Shown here: positions 6,951 through 48,928 of the stretch, piece after piece
Layout of the letters: each line of letters begins with the position of its first letter
Numbering within the stretch: the first letter of the stretch is position 1
Assembly: GCA_014191035.1 (NCBI GenBank)
Contig: BJGX01000003.1
Span: 1 to 48,929 of the forward strand
Direction of reading: 5' to 3'
Length of the DNA: 48,929 nucleotides
Source: Candidatus Saccharimonadota bacterium
GTDB lineage: Bacteria > Patescibacteriota > Saccharimonadia > CAILAD01 > BJGX01
Notes under the pieces: model-generated
Databases searched by the model: none
What the model saw: only the letters and a program-made list of their open reading frames with translations
Told to the model about the DNA's origin: nothing
Program-made: the position numbers and the translations under genes

Positions 6951-8384
6951 ATGGATCCGCAAAGCAATCCTATTAATAATACTCAGGGGGATGACGTACC
7001 GGCGGGGGACGCTAGTTTGCCTTCGGGTGGTTCGACTTTTCAGCCTCAGGACAATCCTGCGGGCGGTACAGCTATACCAATGGGCGATACAGGTGCGATG
7101 GGTGCGACACCACCACCAACTCCTGGCTGGCAAAATGAAGCTGCAGCAGATGCTGCTGGAGTTTATGGAGCACCTCAGCCAGAGCAGGGTGCATCAACCA
7201 TGCCTCCAAACCCGCTATTAAATGACACAAATGCTGCAGATACCACCGCCGCCACAACTGCAATGAGCAATGATTTTAATCAAGCAAGCCAGATGGCATC
7301 GCCAACTGCAATGCCTAGCCCTGAGCCAATGCAGACAACTCAGCCAATGGCAGATGCATCTTCTACTATGCCGCCAAACCCGTTAATGGCTGAGAACCAG
7401 CCAGCATCGCCAGCTCCACAAGAACCAGTAATGCCTTCAAGCGAGCCAGTATCTCCTATGCCACAGCCCGAGACTCCTGCCACTATGCCAGAACCAGCCA
7501 TGGCTCCGACAGCCGAGCCAATGCCAGCTAATGATATGGGTGGTTCGCCACCTCCAGATGTGCCAGGCGCTGCACCAGAAATGGCTCAACCTGCACAAAA
7601 TGAAGTGCCAATGCCGCAGCCTGAACCTACCGGTGCACCTACACCTATTTTGGCACCTCAGCCAGGCACTTTGCCAGGGGCAGATCAGCTAGGGGCAGCT
7701 GCTGCTGGAATGGATCAGTCTGCAATGCAAAATCCTGGTATGGCTGCGGGCATGGGTACATATGGCCCGCCCCCTAAAAAGAGTAAAAAGGCTTTATTTA
7801 TAATTATTGGTGCTATTATTGGTGTGATAATTATTTCTGTGGTTATAGCGGTGTTGATATCGTCAAGAAGACAACCAGCACAAGATATTAATACATCCAC
7901 CCAGCCTACAGAGCAGCCAGCAGAGGTTGCGACTCCTTCATCAGGACCGGCTACACCGCCAGAGGGGTATGAAACTATCGAAAAGCAGTGCTATACTTTT
8001 GCGCTTATTACCCCAAACACAGTTCCAGATGATGAGGCCTGCACATTCAAAAGGTCTAACTTTGGCCAAAAAGCCACTAGTATTATTAGCGTCGACACTT
8101 CTACCAATGCATTTAAAACTGTCGATGAATATTTAGATGTTTTTAGGCAGGATAAAACTATAGAAAGTGAAGAAGATATAAAGCTAGATAATTTTGATGC
8201 TAAGCAAATTATTTATAAGTTTAGTGATGGCAAAACTTATTCATACGTAGCTGCACTTATTACAGGTAAAAACTATCAGCAAGACGGCAAGGCAGTAACT
8301 GCAATTGGAATTACAACCAGCTATCAAGATACATTTTCTAAAGATGTAACCAAGAATGTTCTCGATACATGGCGCTTTAAGTAG
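6951..8384 (+). CDS. Pro/Met/Ala-rich low-complexity protein with one TM helix and a C-terminal extracellular domain
   Basis: Long Pro-rich N-terminal half, then KKSKKALFIIIGAIIGVIIISVVIAVLISS, then a soluble domain. Confidence 0.85.
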   Translation: MDPQSNPINNTQGDDVPAGDASLPSGGSTFQPQDNPAGGTAIPMGDTGAMGATPPPTPGWQNEAAADAAGVYGAPQPEQGASTMPPNPLLNDTNAADTTAATTAMSNDFNQASQMASPTAMPSPEPMQTTQPMADASSTMPPNPLMAENQPASPAPQEPVMPSSEPVSPMPQPETPATMPEPAMAPTAEPMPANDMGGSPPPDVPGAAPEMAQPAQNEVPMPQPEPTGAPTPILAPQPGTLPGADQLGAAAAGMDQSAMQNPGMAAGMGTYGPPPKKSKKALFIIIGAIIGVIIISVVIAVLISSRRQPAQDINTSTQPTEQPAEVATPSSGPATPPEGYETIEKQCYTFALITPNTVPDDEACTFKRSNFGQKATSIISVDTSTNAFKTVDEYLDVFRQDKTIESEEDIKLDNFDAKQIIYKFSDGKTYSYVAALITGKNYQQDGKAVTAIGITTSYQDTFSKDVTKNVLDTWRFK

Positions 8385-8830: not shown

Positions 8831-10579
8831 ATGAATGACGTCGAAGAAGTTAAGTCTAGAATAGATATTGTTGATGTAATCGGGGGGTATGTTCCTCTTA
8901 AGCAAACTGGCAAAAGCTTTAAGGGATTGAGCCCATTTAAGACCGAAAAAACGCCGTCTTTTATAGTTAGCCCAGAAAAGAATATATGGCACGACTTTAG
9001 TAGTGGCAAAGGTGGAGATGTAATAACTTTTGTAATGGAAATGGAGGGCTTAAGTTTTCCTGAGGCTTTGGAAATGCTTGCCAAAAGAGCGGGGGTAAAA
9101 CTAAAGCCCAGAAAGCAAAATGAAAAAGATTCAAGCAATAAGGCTGAGATTTATGACTGCCTTGATGCTGCTATGGCTTATTTTCATGTAGTACTTTCTA
9201 AGAATGAAAAAGCCAAGAATTATTTTGTAATGGAGCGTAATTTAAAATCTGAAACAATTAAAAAATTCAGACTTGGATACTCGCCTGATAGCTGGGATTC
9301 TCTAAGAAACTATTTAAATAAGAAGGGTTTTAAGGATGAAGTTTTGGTAACTGCTGGGCTTTGTGCGAAGGGAAACAATGGCAGGGGAGCTTACGACCTA
9401 TTTCGTGGTCGTGTAATGTTTCCAGTATTTGATATGCAAAATAGAACAATAGGGTTCAGTGCACGCATACTAAGTGAAGAAAAGACTGCTAAATACATTA
9501 ATACACCCCAGACGCCTGTTTATAACAAAAGCTTGGCAATATATGGTTTGTCGCAAGCCAAAGAAAGTATTAGAGAAAAGGATCAGGTAGTTATCGTGGA
9601 GGGAAATATGGACGTTTTGGCACTTGCTAATGCTGGCTTTAATAATATTGTAGCCTGCAGTGGCACGGCCTTTACTGAACTTCAGCTCAAACAGCTATCG
9701 AGACTTACCAAAAATATTGCACTTTGCTTCGATAGCGATGAGGCAGGCATTAATGCTACCCTTCGAGCTATTGAAATAGCCGCTGATGAAGAAGTAAGAC
9801 TTGATGTAATAAGCTTAAATCATGCAAAAGATCCTGATGAATTATTAAAAAAGGGTCAAGCTGAATGGAAAAAAGCTCTCAAAAATGCAAAATATGCTCC
9901 AGACTTTATGATTGATTTCGCAAAACAAAAATATGGAATTACGACGGCACCTGGCAAGAAGAAATTTACTGCATTTGTATTGCCATTATTGAAATCCTTA
10001 AAAGACGAGATTGAGTTTCAGCATTACCTAAAAAAAATATCACAACTTTTAGGTGTTAAAGAAGAAAGTATAAATAATTTAATTAATCAAAAATCAAATG
10101 AAACAAAGTTCAAAAATATTGATCAACCCGAAAGTGAGCCGTCTATTAATGAAGTTAAAAAATTATCTAGACAAGAAAATCTAGAAAAAGAGCTTTTGGA
10201 GCTAGTTTTTGCGTTTCCCGAATTAAACTCGGCAATCGAGGATTTAGAAATTGAACATACTAGCAATTTGCACAGACCGTTATTTGAGTTTTTGAAGCAA
10301 AATCCAAAATTCAATTTTGATAAAGCTTTAAATGAGTTGCCGAATCAGGCAGAATATGTTAAAATTTTGTCATTAAGGGGTGAACAACAATTCGCCAACA
10401 TACCGGCGCACGATAAAAGGCTCGAAGCCTTCACCCAGGTCGCAAGGATCGAAGATATAAACAAGCAAATAGCCAAACGCCAAATTGCTAGGCAATTATC
10501 AGTTGCCGAAGCCGAAGGTGATTCCAAAAAAATAAAACAACTGCTCAAGCAGTACCAAGCACTATTAAACGAGGACTAA
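8831..10579 (+). CDS. dnaG: DNA primase
   Basis: MNDVEEVKSRIDIVDVIGGYVPLKQTGKSFKGLSPF, VVIVEGNMDVLAL toprim, CFDSDEAG. Start set at ATG8831. Confidence 0.93.
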   Translation: MNDVEEVKSRIDIVDVIGGYVPLKQTGKSFKGLSPFKTEKTPSFIVSPEKNIWHDFSSGKGGDVITFVMEMEGLSFPEALEMLAKRAGVKLKPRKQNEKDSSNKAEIYDCLDAAMAYFHVVLSKNEKAKNYFVMERNLKSETIKKFRLGYSPDSWDSLRNYLNKKGFKDEVLVTAGLCAKGNNGRGAYDLFRGRVMFPVFDMQNRTIGFSARILSEEKTAKYINTPQTPVYNKSLAIYGLSQAKESIREKDQVVIVEGNMDVLALANAGFNNIVACSGTAFTELQLKQLSRLTKNIALCFDSDEAGINATLRAIEIAADEEVRLDVISLNHAKDPDELLKKGQAEWKKALKNAKYAPDFMIDFAKQKYGITTAPGKKKFTAFVLPLLKSLKDEIEFQHYLKKISQLLGVKEESINNLINQKSNETKFKNIDQPESEPSINEVKKLSRQENLEKELLELVFAFPELNSAIEDLEIEHTSNLHRPLFEFLKQNPKFNFDKALNELPNQAEYVKILSLRGEQQFANIPAHDKRLEAFTQVARIEDINKQIAKRQIARQLSVAEAEGDSKKIKQLLKQYQALLNED

Positions 10580-19906: not shown

Positions 19907-19935
19907 TTGACAAAAAATAAAACTTAGGCTATAAT
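19907..19935 (+). promoter_or_regulatory. Consensus sigma70 promoter
   Basis: TTGACA - 17 nt - TATAAT. Confidence 0.9.
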
Positions 19936-19941
19936 CTTTTT

Positions 19942-20309
19942 GTTGTTCGACGACTATGACCCTTAGGAGGGCCTTATGGGTGGCGTATAGCCAACCGTCC
20001 CCTCTGGGGGAGTCGTTGGGGCCTGGGGGGCTCGTAGGCCCCCCAGGTTACCCGGCTTCGGGTGCAACATAGAAGAAGGGAAGAAGGATGTCTGGATACT
20101 GATATCCTGTAAGAAGAGTGAAAGCTCTATTCCTTGAACAGCGTCGATTTGTGTGTCTGAATAAGACGCTAATATCGACTATTTACCCCGCACAGTTTCT
20201 TAGCTGAGTGGGGTGGCACATGGCCGGGGGAGGGCGTAAAAACCCTTTCCCGGCCAGCCAAACCTCTTAATAAGTCACTATTTGATAACACCTAAAAGGG
20301 TGTTTTTTT
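19942..20309 (+). ncRNA. Unidentified large structured ncRNA (~370 nt)
   Basis: Between a consensus promoter and a terminator; no convincing ORF. Stems: TTCGACGACT/AGTCGTTGGG, CCTGGGGGGC/GCCCCCCAGG, ACCCG/CGGGT, GAGT-GAAA-GCTC, CCCC..GGGG, GGCCGGG..CCCGGCC. Confidence 0.8.
20288..20309 (+). terminator. Rho-independent terminator
   Basis: ACACC-TAAAA-GGGTGT followed by TTTTTTG. Confidence 0.85.
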
Positions 20310-20406: not shown

Positions 20407-20435
20407 TTGACAAAAAATATAATCTATGATATCAT
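20407..20435 (+). promoter_or_regulatory. Sigma70 promoter of the structured tmRNA operon
   Basis: TTGACA - 17 nt - TATCAT, followed by hairpins GTCAG..CTGAC and GCCGG-TTCG-CCGGC. Confidence 0.85.
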
Positions 20436-20532
20436 ACTTCACGTTGTCAGAGAGTGTTAAAGCTCACTGACATAAATTCGCACCCAAAAAACGCCGGTTC
20501 GCCGGCCCAAGTCACCAAAAGGAGGTGATTGA

Positions 20533-20742
20533 ATGAAGCGTGACCACCGAATCCCAGACCAGCCCCAGAAGTTCCGAATGGACATCTGGCTGGTCGAAGT
20601 CAAGGAGACTGGAGAACCCATTGTGGTGCTGAACAAGACGTTCATGGAGCTCAACACTCTCATGAATGAGGAGTTCGGTATCAACGGATGGGAAATCCAT
20701 GATCGGGAATCGACCGGCATGCTGACCGCCCAGGCGGGTTAG
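20533..20742 (+). CDS. 69-aa hypothetical protein (ORF1)
   Basis: AAAGGAGGTGAT SD before ATG: MKRDHRIPDQPQKFRMDIWLVEVKETGEPIVVLNKTFMELNTLMNEEFGINGWEIHDRESTGMLTAQAG. Confidence 0.75.
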   Translation: MKRDHRIPDQPQKFRMDIWLVEVKETGEPIVVLNKTFMELNTLMNEEFGINGWEIHDRESTGMLTAQAG

Positions 20743-20750
20743 TATGGCTT

Positions 20751-20804
20751 CGGGGCCTATGGAGAAGGCCTGGCAACAGAAGAGTCGCCTAGGCGATTTA
20801 CTCC
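20751..20804 (+). ncRNA. Pseudoknot module, copy 1 (8 nt after ORF1 stop)
   Basis: CGGGGCCTATGGAGAAGGCCTGGCAACAGAAG; stem1 GGCC/GGCC, loop GGAG pairs with CTCC 20801-20804, hairpin AGTCGCC/GGCGATT inserted. Confidence 0.75.
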
Positions 20805-20898
20805 TTTCGCAGTCAGGTAAAAAGACTTAAAAACCAAGCCAGCGAGATGTGGCTTTCAAGTGCTTACAGCACAGCTCGAAGAGGCGCTTATGCGTACT

Positions 20899-20957
20899 CG
20901 GGGCCTTTTATGGTAAGGCCCGGCAACACAAGCAATCGTTTTATGTTTGCAGCCCCG
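20899..20957 (+). ncRNA. Pseudoknot module, diverged copy
   Basis: CGGGGCCTTTTATGGTAAGGCCCGGCAACACAAG; stem1 GGGCC/GGCCC; possible stem2 ATGG/CCGT. Confidence 0.55.
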
Positions 20958-21045
20958 TCCGGGGGTAACCCCGGGTGAGTGATAGTCCGAGGATGTGTGT
21001 CCTCGCTGATGAGTCCAAAAGGACGAAACTTGCTTCAAACAAAAC
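20938..21045 (+). ncRNA. Hammerhead ribozyme, type III-like (core 20984-21030)
   Basis: AGTC | CGAGGA-TGTGTG-TCCTCG | CTGATGA | GTCC-AAAA-GGAC | GAAAC. Possible distal stem III GTTTT-AT-GTTTG with CAAAC-AAAAC. Predicted cleavage after C20987. Confidence 0.9.
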
Positions 21046-21131
21046 TTTCCCCGCGTTGGCAATTTTAATACGCCCTTATAGCGCATGTGTGGAAAGGTAT
21101 GTGGTTAGCACCATCAGATGCACATTTACAC

Positions 21132-21180
21132 CTGGAAGTCTCGTACTTCCAGCATAGGATCTAAAGAACTAGGTTTTATG
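21132..21180 (+). ncRNA. Tandem-hairpin module, diverged copy C (upstream of tmRNA)
   Basis: CTGGAAGT..ACTTCCAG then CATA...TAGGTTT-TATG. Confidence 0.5.
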
Positions 21181-21200
21181 CCGGAAGTACGCTTCCTAAC

Positions 21201-21554
21201 GGGGCCGAACGGTTTCGACACGGAGAAAGCAAAGTTTTTTCGCAACCCGAGTTGCTCAGACTCGTTAAACAGGGCAACCCTAATAAACGCCGCCTGATAG
21301 CACGTTTATTGTCATCCGCTCGGCGGAAAGGACGGGGCTTAGTCACTTAGCCTGGCAACAGAAAAGGGACTGACGGTAGCAAAGACTACTGACCTATCTG
21401 GAAAGACAGATTGACCTCAGCGAAAGTGCTGGCTGCTGGCCGAAAGGTACAGGCGACCCGTCGCCCTGACTGCAGATGAGTCAAAATACCGGGAATGGTT
21501 GTAGCGGAGTGCTTATGCGCTTCGTGGACGGGGGTTCGATTCCCCCCGGCTCCA
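21201..21554 (+). ncRNA. ssrA: tmRNA (transfer-messenger RNA)
   Basis: 5' GGGGCCGAACGGTTTCGACACGG and 3' GGACGGGGGTTCGATTCCCCCCGGCTCCA; 7-bp acceptor pairing including G-U; tag frame ends GCC GCC TGA TAG; several pseudoknots. CCA not encoded. Confidence 0.97.
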
Positions 21555-21606
21555 CATGGCCCCTTCTAGTGGGGTAGGCAGGGCTGGCTGTAGCCCATTT
21601 AGACGA

Positions 21607-21835: not shown

Positions 21836-22180
21836 ATGCACAAGATCAAGTTGTTCATGGCTATGGTCGTGGTCGCCGTCGGGGTTCTCCTGACTGGCTG
21901 TGGCAATTCTGCACAGCAGATCGCCGACGACTTCCCCTGCTCCCAGAGCATGAAGACGTCGACCACGGCCGGCCTGGACCTGATTGTGGAGAGCACGTTC
22001 CCGCGTTGGTACGTGTCCAACTCCCGGTCCTTCTTCGGCGAGTCCTACGACTTCAAGAAGGAGTGGCGCCGTCAGATCGTGATTCGTTCGGGAGTTTCCG
22101 AACCAATCGTGGTCGACACGGAACTGAAGGTGCCTGCAAGGTGCTCGAAGTCCGACGAAGCCAAGGCCAAGTTGAACTGA
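21836..22180 (+). CDS. Small putative lipoprotein, 114 aa (ORF2)
   Basis: AAAGGAGGTGAG SD; N-terminus MHKIKLFMAMVVVAVGVLLTGCGNSA has a lipobox-like LTGC. Confidence 0.8.
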   Translation: MHKIKLFMAMVVVAVGVLLTGCGNSAQQIADDFPCSQSMKTSTTAGLDLIVESTFPRWYVSNSRSFFGESYDFKKEWRRQIVIRSGVSEPIVVDTELKVPARCSKSDEAKAKLN

Positions 22181-22187
22181 CTTAGAT

Positions 22188-22236
22188 CGGGGCCTATGGA
22201 GAAGGCCTGGCAACAGAAGTTACTAGCTAACACTCC
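22188..22236 (+). ncRNA. Pseudoknot module, copy 2 (7 nt after ORF2 stop)
   Basis: Exact 32-nt match to 20751-20782; GGAG pairs with CTCC 22233-22236; inserted hairpin GTTA..TAAC differs in sequence from copy 1. Confidence 0.75.
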
Positions 22237-22239
22237 CAC

Positions 22240-22311
22240 GCGCTTCTAGCTCAACGGTAGAGCACCGGACTTTTAATCCGTAGGTTCTGGGTTCGAATCC
22301 CAGGGGGCGCA
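22240..22311 (+). tRNA. tRNA-Lys (anticodon TTT)
   Basis: Acceptor GCGCTTC/GGGGCGC, anticodon loop CTTTTAA, T arm CTGGGTTCGAATCCCAG; CCA not encoded. Confidence 0.95.
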
Positions 22312-22314
22312 CTA

Positions 22315-22374
22315 TCCCATAAGCTTCGGCTTGTGGGACCACCAAAGTTTATTTAATAAAGTAGGTTTTGGTGG
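22315..22374 (+). ncRNA. Tandem-hairpin module, copy B (after tRNA-Lys)
   Basis: TCCCATAAGC-TTCG-GCTTGTGGGA, then CCACCA-AAGTTTATTTAATAAAGTAGGTTT-TGGTGG. Confidence 0.7.
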
Positions 22375-22380
22375 AACTTA

Positions 22381-22407
22381 AAAACCCCTCAGATGAGGGG
22401 TTTTTGC
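22381..22407 (+). terminator. Rho-independent terminator of the structured operon
   Basis: AAAACCCCTC-AGAT-GAGGGGTTTTTG. Confidence 0.88.
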
Positions 22408-43185: not shown

Positions 43186-45096
43186 ATGAAAATGCTAGCC
43201 AAAATATTTTTTGTAATTGCTATTTCTTTTTTGAGCCTAGCGCTTGTCCAAGGAAAGGCTGAGGCTCAAGAGTGGGAGACCACTAGTGCTTCTGCAACTC
43301 CAACTTCTAACCGAGCTGCTTGTCTAAAAAATGCCAACGGAAATCCCATAGAGCTAAATGACTTTGCGGTCAATATTTCAAATATAACTTTCAATGTAGA
43401 TACTGGCACATTTGCGTACAAAGTTAATGTAGCTTGGGGCAGATGCAACCTTCAAGGAGAGTTGAGTAGGGCGTATGCAATTTATGGACCCACTAGTATC
43501 TGTCCAATTTCCGGCTGGTATGGCTTGAATGGTACTGCTACTGACTGCGTTAAATACGTAGGAGATCCTCCGTACTCTCCACCGAGTGATTTAAAATGTT
43601 CTGGGGGTAGAACAAATGCACAATGCACTACCAGTGCATTCAACGCAGCAATAATAGCCCTGCAAGACCCTGGATTTCTGGACACTAACAATAAAAGAAG
43701 CTATGCCCAAACCTTTACGATACCAAATTGGACAAATGTCCGTAGCAGTTCGACGAGCTACAGTATAAAAGAGCAGATGTGCCAGTACTACAAGGACATA
43801 AGGGTTGGTGTAAAAAACCCAATCGACGTTACCAACAATAGATGTGAGTCAATTAATATAACCGCCAATTGGAGAAAGAAATTACCACCTCCACCATCCC
43901 TCGATGTTAGCTGCACCCCAGATTCAAATACAGAAAATGCCAAGATTACAGTAAAGGCTGTTTCTAGTGACCCTGCAGATAGTGGAGCAATTCTAATTAA
44001 AGAGGACTACGATAAAAACCCACCGGCTTCAGACAGGAATTTATCCTCTAGCACCTACACATTTGGTATAGATGAAAAATACAGAGACAACAAAGAGCAC
44101 ACGTATTTTGTAAGTTTCAAAGGGCTAAATAAATCTATAGTTTTTGGGCCCAATTCTCAGTGCAAGGTGGCTTCATGGTACTATCCATGGCTCCAAACCA
44201 GTCGTGGCAATGTTGTTGCTGAAGGTAGGATAAATGGCCAACGAATATCTAATGGTAGCGATTTCCTTGGCGCCAGACGAAGTGGAGATGAAGCAAAAGA
44301 AGCCGAATTCCTAGTAATATCTGCAGTTGGTGGTGGAGGTCCATTCTGCAGTACATACAATTACATACTCACAAACATTTACGCAACAGACCAGGGCGAT
44401 CCTAACCAATGCAGTAACGGTGCAGGCTACAACTTCAATTCCGCAGGCATAAACATAAATAATGGCAATGTAGATAGGGTGGTTGGTGGAACGAAGCAAG
44501 CCTTCGCAGATAATGGCGCAAACTCAAGCTCCACCCCAAGCGCCTGTAATGCCAATGGCATAGCTACTGCAACAGTAACCACGATACCAACCACAATATC
44601 CACAGACTGCTCCGGGGGAGTTATCTACAAATTAAATTCCAACACTCTCACAGCTACAACAATACAAAAAGGCAGAGTAACAATTTTTGTTGAAGGTGAC
44701 CTTTCAATTAATGATTCAATTCAATACGCAAACACAGCCTATGCAGATCCAAAGCAAGTACCAAATTTGGCAATAGTAGTTAGTGGAAATGTTAACATTA
44801 GCAGTTCGGTCACAAGAATTGATGCCGCAATATATTCTGGCGGCACAATAAATACTTGTAACAACAACCCTCAGAACTGCTCAACTGCCCAATTAAAGGT
44901 TAATGGCTCACTATCTTCCAAGAACGGATTTAATTTCAACAAAACATTCATTAATGATTCTAGAATACCAGCAGAACTAATAGTCCTAGCCCCACAGAAC
45001 ATACTATTCCCACCTCCAGGAATTGAAGGAAGATACTTCTACGATGACGCCGACAGTTACAAACTAGATTCAGCAGAATACGATCCGAGATTTTAA
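43186..45096 (+). CDS. Secreted surface protein with shared C-terminal module
   Basis: Signal peptide MKMLAKIFFVIAISFLSLALVQGKAEA; C-terminal ~278 aa identical to the next ORF. Confidence 0.85.
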   Translation: MKMLAKIFFVIAISFLSLALVQGKAEAQEWETTSASATPTSNRAACLKNANGNPIELNDFAVNISNITFNVDTGTFAYKVNVAWGRCNLQGELSRAYAIYGPTSICPISGWYGLNGTATDCVKYVGDPPYSPPSDLKCSGGRTNAQCTTSAFNAAIIALQDPGFLDTNNKRSYAQTFTIPNWTNVRSSSTSYSIKEQMCQYYKDIRVGVKNPIDVTNNRCESINITANWRKKLPPPPSLDVSCTPDSNTENAKITVKAVSSDPADSGAILIKEDYDKNPPASDRNLSSSTYTFGIDEKYRDNKEHTYFVSFKGLNKSIVFGPNSQCKVASWYYPWLQTSRGNVVAEGRINGQRISNGSDFLGARRSGDEAKEAEFLVISAVGGGGPFCSTYNYILTNIYATDQGDPNQCSNGAGYNFNSAGININNGNVDRVVGGTKQAFADNGANSSSTPSACNANGIATATVTTIPTTISTDCSGGVIYKLNSNTLTATTIQKGRVTIFVEGDLSINDSIQYANTAYADPKQVPNLAIVVSGNVNISSSVTRIDAAIYSGGTINTCNNNPQNCSTAQLKVNGSLSSKNGFNFNKTFINDSRIPAELIVLAPQNILFPPPGIEGRYFYDDADSYKLDSAEYDPRF

Positions 45097-45097: not shown

Positions 45098-45154
45098 TAT
45101 TAACACTTTAATTAAAAAAGTTTATAATTCTTATAGTATTTAAGAAGGGTGAGT

Positions 45155-48100
45155 GTGGATCAAAGTAATTTGCCTCCTAGCCAGGAACAGGCTAGTAACA
45201 ATTTAAAACATAGAATGCCTCTGCCAAAAAACAGAAAGCCTTTAATTATAATTGCTTCAGCCTTATTGGCTTTAGGCCTGATTGTAGCTTTAGTTTATTC
45301 ATATTTTAATTTTTTATACAAAGCGCCACCCGCTGGCTTTTATGCTGTTTTAGCAGACCAAAAAATAACTAATAAAGAGTTTAAAGAGATCTACAATTCT
45401 TATTTAAAATTCGATGAATCAAATGCCAGTGATGGCGCAAAGGTAGACAAGAAGCAGGTTGAAAGAAAAGTCGCGGACGAGGTTCTGCTAAGGCTCTCGC
45501 TACAAAGTGAAGCCGAAAAGAGAAATGCCCAAAAATGTACAGACGATGTAATAAAGGATCGGCTTAAATCTCGTTTTGAGGACGCCGGTGGAGAACAGGA
45601 ATATTTTGACAAATTAAGCGCCCAATATGGTTGGACAAGAGAGGTCACAAAACACAAAGAGTGTCTGGACTTTTATCAGGAAACTTTAGCCAAATCATTG
45701 ATTGGCTCAGTTGAATTATACGGTATTTACATAAGATGGGATATTGCAAAAGGAGCCCAAAACCAACCAGCCGATATCCAGCAAAAAGTAGATGATTATG
45801 CTAAAAAACGCCTCGAAACAGAGTATTTGCCAATGTTTGAAAGGGGAGATACCGAAAAGCAAATTTCATCTAAGGCCGATATTGATCCAGCAACAGTTAC
45901 TCAAGAACAGTTTGATCAAAGGGTTTTAAATATTGATCGCTCCCCAAGTCGAGTACTGGTTCTGCCTCAGATGAACAGAGCAACCTATAGCGAGTTCCAG
46001 CAGTACGAAGAGGGCGAAAGCGAACTGCCTTATTTCGAGAACCTTAAGGTTGGTGAAAACACCAAGCCGTTCAAATCTAAAACGGGTTATTGGGTTATAT
46101 ATAGAGCCACAGGCAGAACAGATGCGCCTTACCAGAGCCTAGAGGCCATGCGAGCTGATTACATTAAAAAGGGAAGTGTGGCAAAGTCATATTTTAAATT
46201 GCCAGAGCCAGTAAAGCCCAAAAACGAAGATGACCCTACTAGAAACTTTAGTCTTTCTGTGGCAGACCAAATAATAAATACCTTAATACCCAAAGCCAAC
46301 GCGGTAACAGCCAACTCAGTACGGTGCTTTACAGGCGGTACAATTCATAATTTGCCGATGACAATTCAGTATAAAGACAAAGCCACTGGTAATGATATTC
46401 AAACCTCTGGAGCATATCCAGGGCCTGAAATGATTAGTACTACGAACGTACAGTTTCCTTGTGCTGATGAGCCGGACCCGGCTGCGTATGCAAAGTATGG
46501 TGTATTAGTAGAGTATTTTGCTGGAGCAGTCGCAATAAAGCCAGCCGCTATACCAGCCCCGACCTGGAACTTTGGTTTGTCTTGCTATACCGGCTGGGAC
46601 TTTAGGTTCAAAGCTCCTAATGGTTATAATACTTTAACGGCTGCTGACTATGATGATCCAAATAGATTTTATCTGAACCTGCAATATGCCACTAGCACAA
46701 CAAGTGGCTACTATGCATCTGGCACGCCGAGCACATCTCCTCAAGATTTATACAGAATACCTACAAGCTTGTACAGTGGTATTGCAAATGGCGCCAAGGG
46801 CTTCACTATAAAAGTCTACTTTACAAAGACCCCAGTAAATACCAATGGCACACTAAGAACTACAAAGATGTTTTTTGGTAAATCTGCCGATACAAATATT
46901 CTTGCTTCTGGGTCTACGCTTCAAGCTGGGGAGAGCATAACTTCTGCCAACGGTAGGTATTTAGCGCGCATGCAGACCGATGGTAATTTTGTACTCTATG
47001 ATAAGGCTTATAACCAAGCACTTTTCAGTACTGGAACTAATGGCAATCCTGGAGCAAAAGTAACAATGCAGACCGACGGCAATCTAAAAGTTTTTAGTTC
47101 TACTAATGCAGTTTTGTATACCGCCCCAAACCCTGCCCCAGGTAAAAATACAGCTACTGCCGGCTCAAAATTACATATGCAAAATGATGGTAATTTAGTC
47201 ATTTGGAATAGTACTACAACGGAATTTTTCTGGAACACGGGCTTTGATAGGCCGAATGGAGTTGCGCAGCAGTTTGTGCCAGATGTGATCACAAACATGA
47301 ATTTGCAATATGTAGATTTCAACAGCTCCAATGTTGTTTATCAGGGGACTGCCAACCCATACACAGTTACAACCCTAGTACAGGCAGATGGGTATAAAGT
47401 AAAGTTTGATGTGCCGACTGGGTACAGACTAGCAAGTGCTTTTGGTAGCCAGCCAGATGGAAGCTTCGCCAATGGCTCTGGCTCAAATATATCCTGCACA
47501 GGCGCTAATAATACTGGCACCTGTACAAAGTCTGCAATCTCAATTAGAACTGGGCAAACCTTTAACTTAGACCTTGTATTCCAGCTAGATGCTAAAGGTA
47601 GTCTAGATGATGTTTGTAATAAAGTATATGGAGCTGAGACAGATCAGTGGTTTTCAGACAGGAGTACAACTAAATTAGCAAATAAAGACAAAGCTTGGGG
47701 TTGGGTTTATGATCCATCGCTACCGCAAACAACTGCTAAAGGCGTTACTGCAAGTAACGCAAGGATAGTATTTGACGAAGGTAAGAGCAATCAAGCATCT
47801 ACTGTAAAATTGGCAGATGAAGAACGGGCAAATCTGCTTATAAACGACTCCACACTAAAAAGTATTTATCATTCATTCAGGGCCGAATTACCTCTTGAGG
47901 TTTTTGATGGCCTTAGCCATAAGGCTAATTTATATATGGAAAAAGACCTCGGCAATGGTACGGTTTTGACTTTTATTGAATCCTTAGATTTTACATGTGG
48001 TGATAAATATTATTTCCCTTGGCTCCAAACTCAAAAAGGAGATGTAGTGTCGGATGGTAAGATTGTAGGTCAAAAAATTTCTAATAATAATAATTTCCTT

Positions 48101-48928
48101 GGCGCCAGACGAAGTGGAGATGAAGCAAAAGAAGCCGAATTCCTAGTAATATCTGCAGTTGGTGGTGGAGGTCCATTCTGCAGTACATACAATTACATAC
48201 TCACAAACATTTACGCAACAGACCAGGGCGATCCTAACCAATGCAGTAACGGTGCAGGCTACAACTTCAATTCCGCAGGCATAAACATAAATAATGGCAA
48301 TGTAGATAGGGTGGTTGGTGGAACGAAGCAAGCCTTCGCAGATAATGGCGCAAACTCAAGCTCCACCCCAAGCGCCTGTAATGCCAATGGCATAGCTACT
48401 GCAACAGTAACCACGATACCAACCACAATATCCACAGACTGCTCCGGGGGAGTTATCTACAAATTAAATTCCAACACTCTCACAGCTACAACAATACAAA
48501 AAGGCAGAGTAACAATTTTTGTTGAAGGTGACCTTTCAATTAATGATTCAATTCAATACGCAAACACAGCCTATGCAGATCCAAAGCAAGTACCAAATTT
48601 GGCAATAGTAGTTAGTGGAAATGTTAACATTAGCAGTTCGGTCACAAGAATTGATGCCGCAATATATTCTGGCGGCACAATAAATACTTGTAACAACAAC
48701 CCTCAGAACTGCTCAACTGCCCAATTAAAGGTTAATGGCTCACTATCTTCCAAGAACGGATTTAATTTCAACAAAACATTCATTAATGATTCTAGAATAC
48801 CAGCAGAACTAATAGTCCTAGCCCCACAGAACATACTATTCCCACCTCCAGGAATTGAAGGAAGATACTTCTACGATGACGCCGACAGTTACAAACTAGA
48901 TTCAGCAGAATACGATCCGAGATTTTAA
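45155..48928 (+). CDS. Large surface protein: TM anchor, SurA/PrsA-like PPIase region, B-lectin-like repeats, shared C-terminal module
   Basis: LKVGENTKPFKSKTGYWVIYRATGR (rotamase-like); MQTDGNFVLYD / MQTDGNLKVFS / MQNDGNLVIWN (B-lectin repeats). Confidence 0.85.
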   Translation: MDQSNLPPSQEQASNNLKHRMPLPKNRKPLIIIASALLALGLIVALVYSYFNFLYKAPPAGFYAVLADQKITNKEFKEIYNSYLKFDESNASDGAKVDKKQVERKVADEVLLRLSLQSEAEKRNAQKCTDDVIKDRLKSRFEDAGGEQEYFDKLSAQYGWTREVTKHKECLDFYQETLAKSLIGSVELYGIYIRWDIAKGAQNQPADIQQKVDDYAKKRLETEYLPMFERGDTEKQISSKADIDPATVTQEQFDQRVLNIDRSPSRVLVLPQMNRATYSEFQQYEEGESELPYFENLKVGENTKPFKSKTGYWVIYRATGRTDAPYQSLEAMRADYIKKGSVAKSYFKLPEPVKPKNEDDPTRNFSLSVADQIINTLIPKANAVTANSVRCFTGGTIHNLPMTIQYKDKATGNDIQTSGAYPGPEMISTTNVQFPCADEPDPAAYAKYGVLVEYFAGAVAIKPAAIPAPTWNFGLSCYTGWDFRFKAPNGYNTLTAADYDDPNRFYLNLQYATSTTSGYYASGTPSTSPQDLYRIPTSLYSGIANGAKGFTIKVYFTKTPVNTNGTLRTTKMFFGKSADTNILASGSTLQAGESITSANGRYLARMQTDGNFVLYDKAYNQALFSTGTNGNPGAKVTMQTDGNLKVFSSTNAVLYTAPNPAPGKNTATAGSKLHMQNDGNLVIWNSTTTEFFWNTGFDRPNGVAQQFVPDVITNMNLQYVDFNSSNVVYQGTANPYTVTTLVQADGYKVKFDVPTGYRLASAFGSQPDGSFANGSGSNISCTGANNTGTCTKSAISIRTGQTFNLDLVFQLDAKGSLDDVCNKVYGAETDQWFSDRSTTKLANKDKAWGWVYDPSLPQTTAKGVTASNARIVFDEGKSNQASTVKLADEERANLLINDSTLKSIYHSFRAELPLEVFDGLSHKANLYMEKDLGNGTVLTFIESLDFTCGDKYYFPWLQTQKGDVVSDGKIVGQKISNNNNFLGARRSGDEAKEAEFLVISAVGGGGPFCSTYNYILTNIYATDQGDPNQCSNGAGYNFNSAGININNGNVDRVVGGTKQAFADNGANSSSTPSACNANGIATATVTTIPTTISTDCSGGVIYKLNSNTLTATTIQKGRVTIFVEGDLSINDSIQYANTAYADPKQVPNLAIVVSGNVNISSSVTRIDAAIYSGGTINTCNNNPQNCSTAQLKVNGSLSSKNGFNFNKTFINDSRIPAELIVLAPQNILFPPPGIEGRYFYDDADSYKLDSAEYDPRF

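Follow-up and report, generated by a model that had tools for sequence, protein, structure and literature searches.

A predicted hammerhead ribozyme upstream of an extra phage-type tmRNA in Saccharimonadota

Introduction

We know of no established biological role for most bacterial and phage hammerhead ribozymes. Hammerheads have been described close to prophage genes and between genes of phages (PMC3088659), and a passage in PMC10085705 cites their enrichment near genes of Mu-like phages. Another self-cleaving class, the theta ribozymes, adjoins phage tRNAs (PMC10879173). Among tmRNAs, 25 sequences with a two-residue Ala-Ala tag have been reported, commonly from Fermentibacterota (PMC11915505). 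A search that reached little of the subscription literature found no paper linking hammerheads to tmRNA operons, Saccharibacteria or CPR.

The locus analyzed here lies in a stretch of 48,929 nt from a Candidatus Saccharimonadota bacterium (contig BJGX01000003.1; hereafter "the window"). Its hammerhead resembles the bacterial and phage members of Hammerhead_3 (RF00008; PMC3088659) in the stem order III-I-II, the invariant core, the GUC triplet, stems I and II and the phage or prophage-like setting, and copies from PaP3-like Pseudomonas phages are similar to it in sequence. Unlike those members, it shares its unit with a tRNA and a second tmRNA, and its inner stem III, of only 3 bp, is combined with an outer stem and a hairpin inserted between them. 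It shares small size, self-cleaving type and linkage to phage-type tRNA-like RNAs with the theta ribozymes of gut phages, which are HDV-like and tRNA-associated (PMC10879173); however, theta ribozymes cut within a few nucleotides of tRNA 3' ends, whereas the predicted cut lies at least 213 nt from the mature RNA end in all four genomes with the window-type arrangement. Agrobacterium arrays of several hammerheads flanking ardA likewise lie between genes of polycistronic phage-like transcripts, but without a tmRNA (PMC3088659). The tmRNA itself is like Ala-Ala-tag tmRNAs (PMC11915505) and phage tmRNAs (PMC4131195) in its GCC GCC stop frame and its phage-type 5' and 3' domains, and differs from them in being the second tmRNA of a host that also has a canonical one, and in lying within a ribozyme-bearing unit.

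Identification of the ribozyme

The hammerhead and its surroundings comprise the following elements.

20938..20953 (+), extended outer stem III, 5' arm (folding)
20959..20974 (+), hairpin CCGGGG-GUAA-CCCCGG, immediately 5' of the ribozyme (folding)
20984..21030 (+), type III hammerhead core, predicted cleavage after C20987 (Rfam, covariation, folding)
21032..21045 (+), extended outer stem III, 3' arm (folding)

The core is intact, with the cleavage triplet GUC (20985-20987, of the NUH type), CUGAUGA (21006-21012) and GAAA (21025-21028). Stem I (20988-20993/21000-21005) has 6 bp and stem II (21013-21016/21021-21024) has 4 bp; both are closed by loops and stem III is open, which defines type III. 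The inner stem III consists of the three pairs A20984-U21030, G20985-C21029 and U20986-A21028. A first-pass annotation made from the sequence alone had proposed exactly this complete core, these stem lengths and a proximal stem III of about 3 bp, and each element is found in place. It had also pointed to a scan with the Rfam model, whose outcome is divided: the match (20980-21034) scores 41.9 bits, short of the curated gathering score of 48.5 bits, so that a default Rfam scan misses the ribozyme, yet with an E-value of 3.3e-7 over all 4227 Rfam families the match stands far above chance. Most of the covarying relatives also score under this cut-off, which is therefore strict for this group of ribozymes, and a model built from 31 relatives, the window copy included, gives the window hammerhead 65.6 bits. 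Together, these comparisons confirm at the sequence level a genuine hammerhead ribozyme, for which self-cleavage is predicted.

In a search of 100 related genomes, including that of the window, hammerhead matches are present in 28. The core, whose conservation the first-pass annotation had made a condition of its reading, is conserved in relatives. An alignment of 31 of these copies (window included) has 91.4% of its cells paired; 182 cells are compensatory as opposed to 57 expected in shuffles, and compensatory changes affect three of the four stem II pairs and all six stem I pairs. A loop I starting with UG accompanies a loop II of AAAA in 12 of 12 copies, as opposed to 5 of 19 with other loop II sequences (p = 9e-5, a statistic that ignores relatedness), an association that suggests a conserved loop-loop contact. 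The hammerhead of G014, a genome from another family, lies at the syntenic place, and the 47 nt containing the core and stems I and II are identical to those of the window despite diverged flanking DNA.

Across the family, 82% of stem III cells are paired, while the window copy has only its three inner pairs and a predicted outer stem; the GC hairpin at 20959-20974 is inserted between the two, inside the extended stem. The arms proposed earlier for an elaborated stem III, GTTTT-AT-GTTTG (20938-20949) and CAAAC-AAAAC (21036-21045), are exact. In the folded ensemble, the pairs 20945-20949/21036-21040 (GUUUG/CAAAC) and AGC 20951-20953/GCU 21032-21034 reach a probability of 0.96-1.0, the outermost five pairs about 0.1-0.47, and the inner stem III pairs about 0 under nearest-neighbor folding. 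The lowest-energy structure (-38.4 kcal/mol) and the hammerhead fold (-31.3 kcal/mol) are about 7 kcal/mol apart under parameters that ignore the tertiary core. Alignments of relatives give no sign that the outer stem is shared; since these mostly have an ordinary stem III of 4-7 bp with a hairpin before it, the elaborated stem seems to be a local variant of the window copy.

The predicted transcription unit

The ribozyme lies within a series of features on the same strand.

19907..19935 (+), promoter TTGACA-17-TATAAT, perfect sigma-70-like, directly 3' of the TrmB-like gene (prediction)
19942..20304 (+), putative noncoding RNA unit without an ORF, terminator-like hairpin at 20287-20304 (prediction)
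20407..20435 (+), unit promoter TTGACA-17-TATCAT with TG extension (promoter prediction)
20533..20742 (+), ORF1, 69 aa, strong Shine-Dalgarno (ORF call)
20743..20979 (+), structured RNA from the ORF1 stop to the ribozyme (folding z -2.3)
20750..20782 (+), pseudoknot-like repeat (GGGGCC..GGCCTGGCAACAGAAG) just 3' of the ORF1 stop (repeat search)
21120..21191 (+), element X (double hairpin), copy 1, its end 10 nt short of the tmRNA (inverted and direct repeats, by eye)
21201..21557 (+), second, phage-type tmRNA (Rfam, 101.4 bits)
21289..21297 (+), probable tag reading frame GCC GCC TGA, Ala-Ala-stop (alignment to phage tmRNAs)
21710..21780 (+), element X, copy 2 (repeat comparison)
21836..22180 (+), ORF2, 114 aa, lipoprotein-like, with Shine-Dalgarno (ORF call)
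22187..22219 (+), identical second copy of the pseudoknot-like repeat, just 3' of the ORF2 stop (repeat search)
22240..22312 (+), extra tRNA-Lys(TTT), no encoded CCA (tRNA search)
22315..22376 (+), element X, copy 3 (repeat, comparison by eye)
22379..22406 (+), intrinsic terminator closing the unit, with a stem of 12 bp (terminator prediction)

From the promoter at 20407, the order is thus ORF1, structured RNA, ribozyme, tmRNA, lipoprotein ORF, tRNA-Lys and the terminator at 22379. Between 20436 and 22378, no promoter or terminator is predicted on the plus strand, and the stretch from ORF1 to tRNA-Lys is accordingly predicted to be one transcript with a single promoter and terminator, both of them strong. 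This agrees with the earlier placement of ribozyme and tmRNA in one unit about 210 nt apart (C20987 and the 5' end of the tmRNA, at 21201, are separated by 213 nt), and with the proposal that cleavage at C20987 would split the ORF1 mRNA from the tmRNA precursor. Extended -10 promoters occur at the same place in L071, L072, L073 and L096, and similar promoters lie 5' of the ORF and ribozyme in relatives, that of G016 being spotted by eye.

ORF1 is 37% identical to an ORF of G014 (L071:6234-6431) and has no Pfam or PHROG match; ORF2, for which the Pfam and PHROG searches likewise return nothing convincing, is 25% identical to L071:8563-8892, downstream of the tmRNA in that genome. The structured RNA upstream of the ribozyme folds better than shuffles, with z-scores of -4.3 in G014 and -4.0 in G016; the hairpin of the window itself is not exceptional (z -1.0). 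No known RNA family exceeds its Rfam cut-off in the ribozyme flanks.

The pseudoknot-like motif ends in (G/A)GCAACAGAA, lies directly 3' of ORF stops and resembles one of the pseudoknots in the tmRNA itself. Besides the two window copies and a variant near 20901, it is seen in L071, L072, L073, L077 and L096. The window island has three copies of the 10-mer GGCAACAGAA, which is absent from the rest of the window. Element X, with a second hairpin of CCMACCAGAG...GGTGGG, adjoins the tmRNA, the tRNA and ORF2, and is also present at about 7445-7530 and 8445-8515 of L071 and, in reverse, at about 9500-9580 and 10285-10345 of L072; in G010, one copy lies just 5' of a terminator. Speculatively, its two adjacent hairpins recall PUT antiterminators. 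The GC-rich unit at 19942-20304, predicted to be separate from the ribozyme unit and just 5' of it, matches no Rfam family over cut-off. Its promoter is found at the same position in G014 and with 11 of 12 positions in G001, and promoter and terminator are similarly placed after TrmB in both genomes.

The extra tmRNA and tRNA-Lys

The tmRNA, which the first-pass annotation had placed correctly 3' of the ribozyme without recognizing it as an extra, phage-type copy, shows the features of RF00023: a tRNA-like domain, the G3-U acceptor stem pair of alanine identity and, by alignment, a tag frame. It has no encoded CCA. The canonical tmRNA of the same genome, with encoded CCA, lies on another contig, so that the window tmRNA is not the only one of its host. 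With the copies of G014, G010 and G006 it makes up a group of its own, which can be aligned to tmRNAs from IMG/VR contigs; over 36 nt in the 5' domain the identity is 97%. ARAGORN misses the window tmRNA. Judged from the alignment to phage tmRNAs, it probably encodes a two-residue Ala-Ala tag. An alternative reading from 21274 gives ATLINAA, and tags of seven residues (ATLINAA, GTKINAA, GTQSNAA, GTAIIAA) were considered until this alignment replaced them with Ala-Ala; the two-residue tag is already published (PMC11915505) and its novelty was dropped. In G010, a bin of 2.2 Mb that looks like a mixture of organisms, several different tmRNAs lie on contigs C398, C616, C542 and C206.

The nearest phage matches of the island tRNA-Lys are tRNA-Lys genes. 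It is 73 nt long as opposed to 77 nt for the host's own tRNA-Lys(TTT), whose presence rules out the island gene as the sole host copy.

Conservation of the island

Among 17 genomes of the order in which orthology was compared, a TrmB-like gene precedes the island, and in most of those checked it is followed by genes for a DHH-type phosphoesterase and truB. The interval measures between 201 bp (G003) and 5.7 kb (G006), and the GC content of filled islands is 0.45-0.50 as opposed to 0.40-0.43 in the flanks. In G014, TrmB and the island stay together and the other flanking genes differ. The layout of promoter, ORF, pseudoknot motif, structured RNA, hairpin and hammerhead recurs in G014, G016, G010, G006 and G001, with a motif matching the repeat at 20750-20782 (GGCAACAGAAG or AGCAACAGAA) 5' of the ribozyme in all five. 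Ribozyme and extra tmRNA lie on one strand in four genomes (window, G014, G010 and G006), which share ancestry and are not independent cases, at distances of 213-1405 nt. In G001, the syntenic island retains the ribozyme but has no tmRNA match, and the contig of G016 ends about 700 nt after the ribozyme. Among the 41 ribozyme matches listed, none adjoins any of the canonical host tmRNAs listed, and most are far from any tmRNA.

Hairpins upstream of hammerheads

In relatives, a significant fold lies within 60 nt upstream of 25 of 39 hammerheads as opposed to 9 of 39 downstream, a comparison that followed hairpins seen by eye in the same sequences and is not independent of them. In the independent set of viral sites, the counts are 40 of 54 upstream and 3 of 54 downstream; the contigs were picked by an exact core pattern, which favors similar ribozymes, and include near-duplicates. 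Here, the median distance is 28 nt from a stop codon to the hammerhead and 35 nt from its end to a start codon, giving the tight order stop codon, hairpin, hammerhead, start codon. This excess of upstream folds and the spacing point to a hairpin-capped 3' end for the upstream message. The rule that a hairpin precedes the hammerhead may already have been noted elsewhere. Many IMG/VR contigs among L148-L181 carry two to five hammerheads, all on a single strand and in the same order; L153 has five.

A tmRNA or tRNA beside viral hammerheads was also sought and not borne out. ARAGORN finds no tmRNA in 34 hammerhead-bearing viral contigs, a weak result since it misses the window tmRNA, and no hammerhead passes E 0.5 in 31 tmRNA-bearing phage contigs.

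Discussion

The hammerhead is probably a functional device that makes the 3' end of the ORF1 transcript within a phage-derived RNA island. This reading draws on the intact core, the family covariation, the single predicted unit, the hairpin-before-ribozyme rule and the conserved layout, all read from sequence. Against it stand features of the window copy: the inner stem III of three pairs with near-zero folding probability, a predicted optimum more stable than the hammerhead fold, and a hairpin no better than shuffles would give. Transcription would begin near 20442 and extend to the terminator at 22379, and the ribozyme would cut after C20987 co-transcriptionally. The upstream product would comprise the ORF1 mRNA and about 240 nt of structured 3' RNA, ending in a strong hairpin followed by a short tail that bears a 2',3'-cyclic phosphate; judged from its position, the hairpin should shield this product from 3' exonucleases. 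The downstream product, starting with a 5'-OH, would carry the tmRNA, ORF2 and tRNA-Lys, and host enzymes, for instance RNase P and the CCA-adding enzyme, may then mature its ends. The proposed role is thus a hairpin-protected 3' end inside a polycistronic RNA without a terminator, and the viral order of stop codon, hairpin, hammerhead and start codon, together with the recurrence of this module in a conserved island on the chromosome, makes it concrete and testable. The link to an extra minimal-tag tmRNA further raises a question about the rescue of ribosomes by phage-type RNAs in episymbiotic bacteria. Tentatively, and with considerable doubt, the islands might even represent a phage-derived module for RNA expression that is under selection and has not been described before. 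In it, an ORF, a pseudoknot, a structured RNA and a 3' end made by hairpin and hammerhead would come before a minimal-tag tmRNA and a tRNA that adjust translation and ribosome rescue, and the double-hairpin elements might act on RNA polymerase in an antitermination-like way.

It is unlikely that the ribozyme is instead a dedicated processing step freeing the precursor of the tmRNA (and tRNA-Lys) from the mRNA to allow its folding and maturation, similar in spirit to theta ribozymes next to phage tRNAs. All four genomes with the extra tmRNA do have a hammerhead upstream on the same strand, and no other same-strand promoter is predicted between the two in the window, G014, G006 or G010. However, the ribozyme never lies at the tmRNA end, and its variable distance and separability from the tmRNA weaken a tmRNA-specific role. 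Terminator-like hairpins intervene in G006 and G010, the phage tmRNAs examined have no hammerhead nearby, and most listed hammerheads of relatives are remote from any tmRNA. The variable distance, the tmRNA-less island of G001 and the viral order favor a general 3'-end role over dedicated tmRNA maturation, so that the first-pass reading stands as to a genuine hammerhead in a predicted tmRNA transcript and not as to a feature dedicated to the tmRNA.

We consider it quite improbable that the hammerhead is a passive relic which was brought in by phage DNA and plays no role under selection in this genome, its weak inner stem III marking early decay. Hammerheads are common in phages and near prophages (PMC3088659), and there are three inner pairs here as opposed to 4-7 in most relatives, but the new outer stem appears to compensate, the layout is preserved in several genera, and the core with stems I and II has stayed identical to that of G014 across diverged flanks.

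A regulated switch, in which the upstream structured RNA and hairpin control stem III and cleavage answers a ligand, ribosome passage or RNA level, is very improbable. The better-than-shuffled folding upstream would suit it, as would an alternative pairing in G014 and G016, where CTGCTCC of the upstream hairpin complements the stem III 5' strand GGAGCAG, but no conserved ligand-binding core is recognized in six sequences and no known riboswitch matches over cut-off. Mere chance resemblance, to which a score below the gathering cut-off might point, is extremely improbable given the E-value across all of Rfam, the strong covariation of relatives and the 47 nt shared with G014 at a syntenic place.

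Additional observations

A further hammerhead lies near mutM and holA in three relatives (L072:14936-14993(-), L073:2856-2913 and L096:4397-4476(-)), with upstream flanks that have no strong hairpin. Another is found just 5' of an apparent rlmH in two genomes (L084 and L086), with conserved flanks, and the motif TCTGCTTGTCAT is common to L081, L092, L103 and L107, just 5' of several hammerheads. Elsewhere in the window, the neighboring genes at 43186-45096 and 45149-48928 have apparently identical ends of about 300 residues or more, which suggests a recent duplication or gene conversion.
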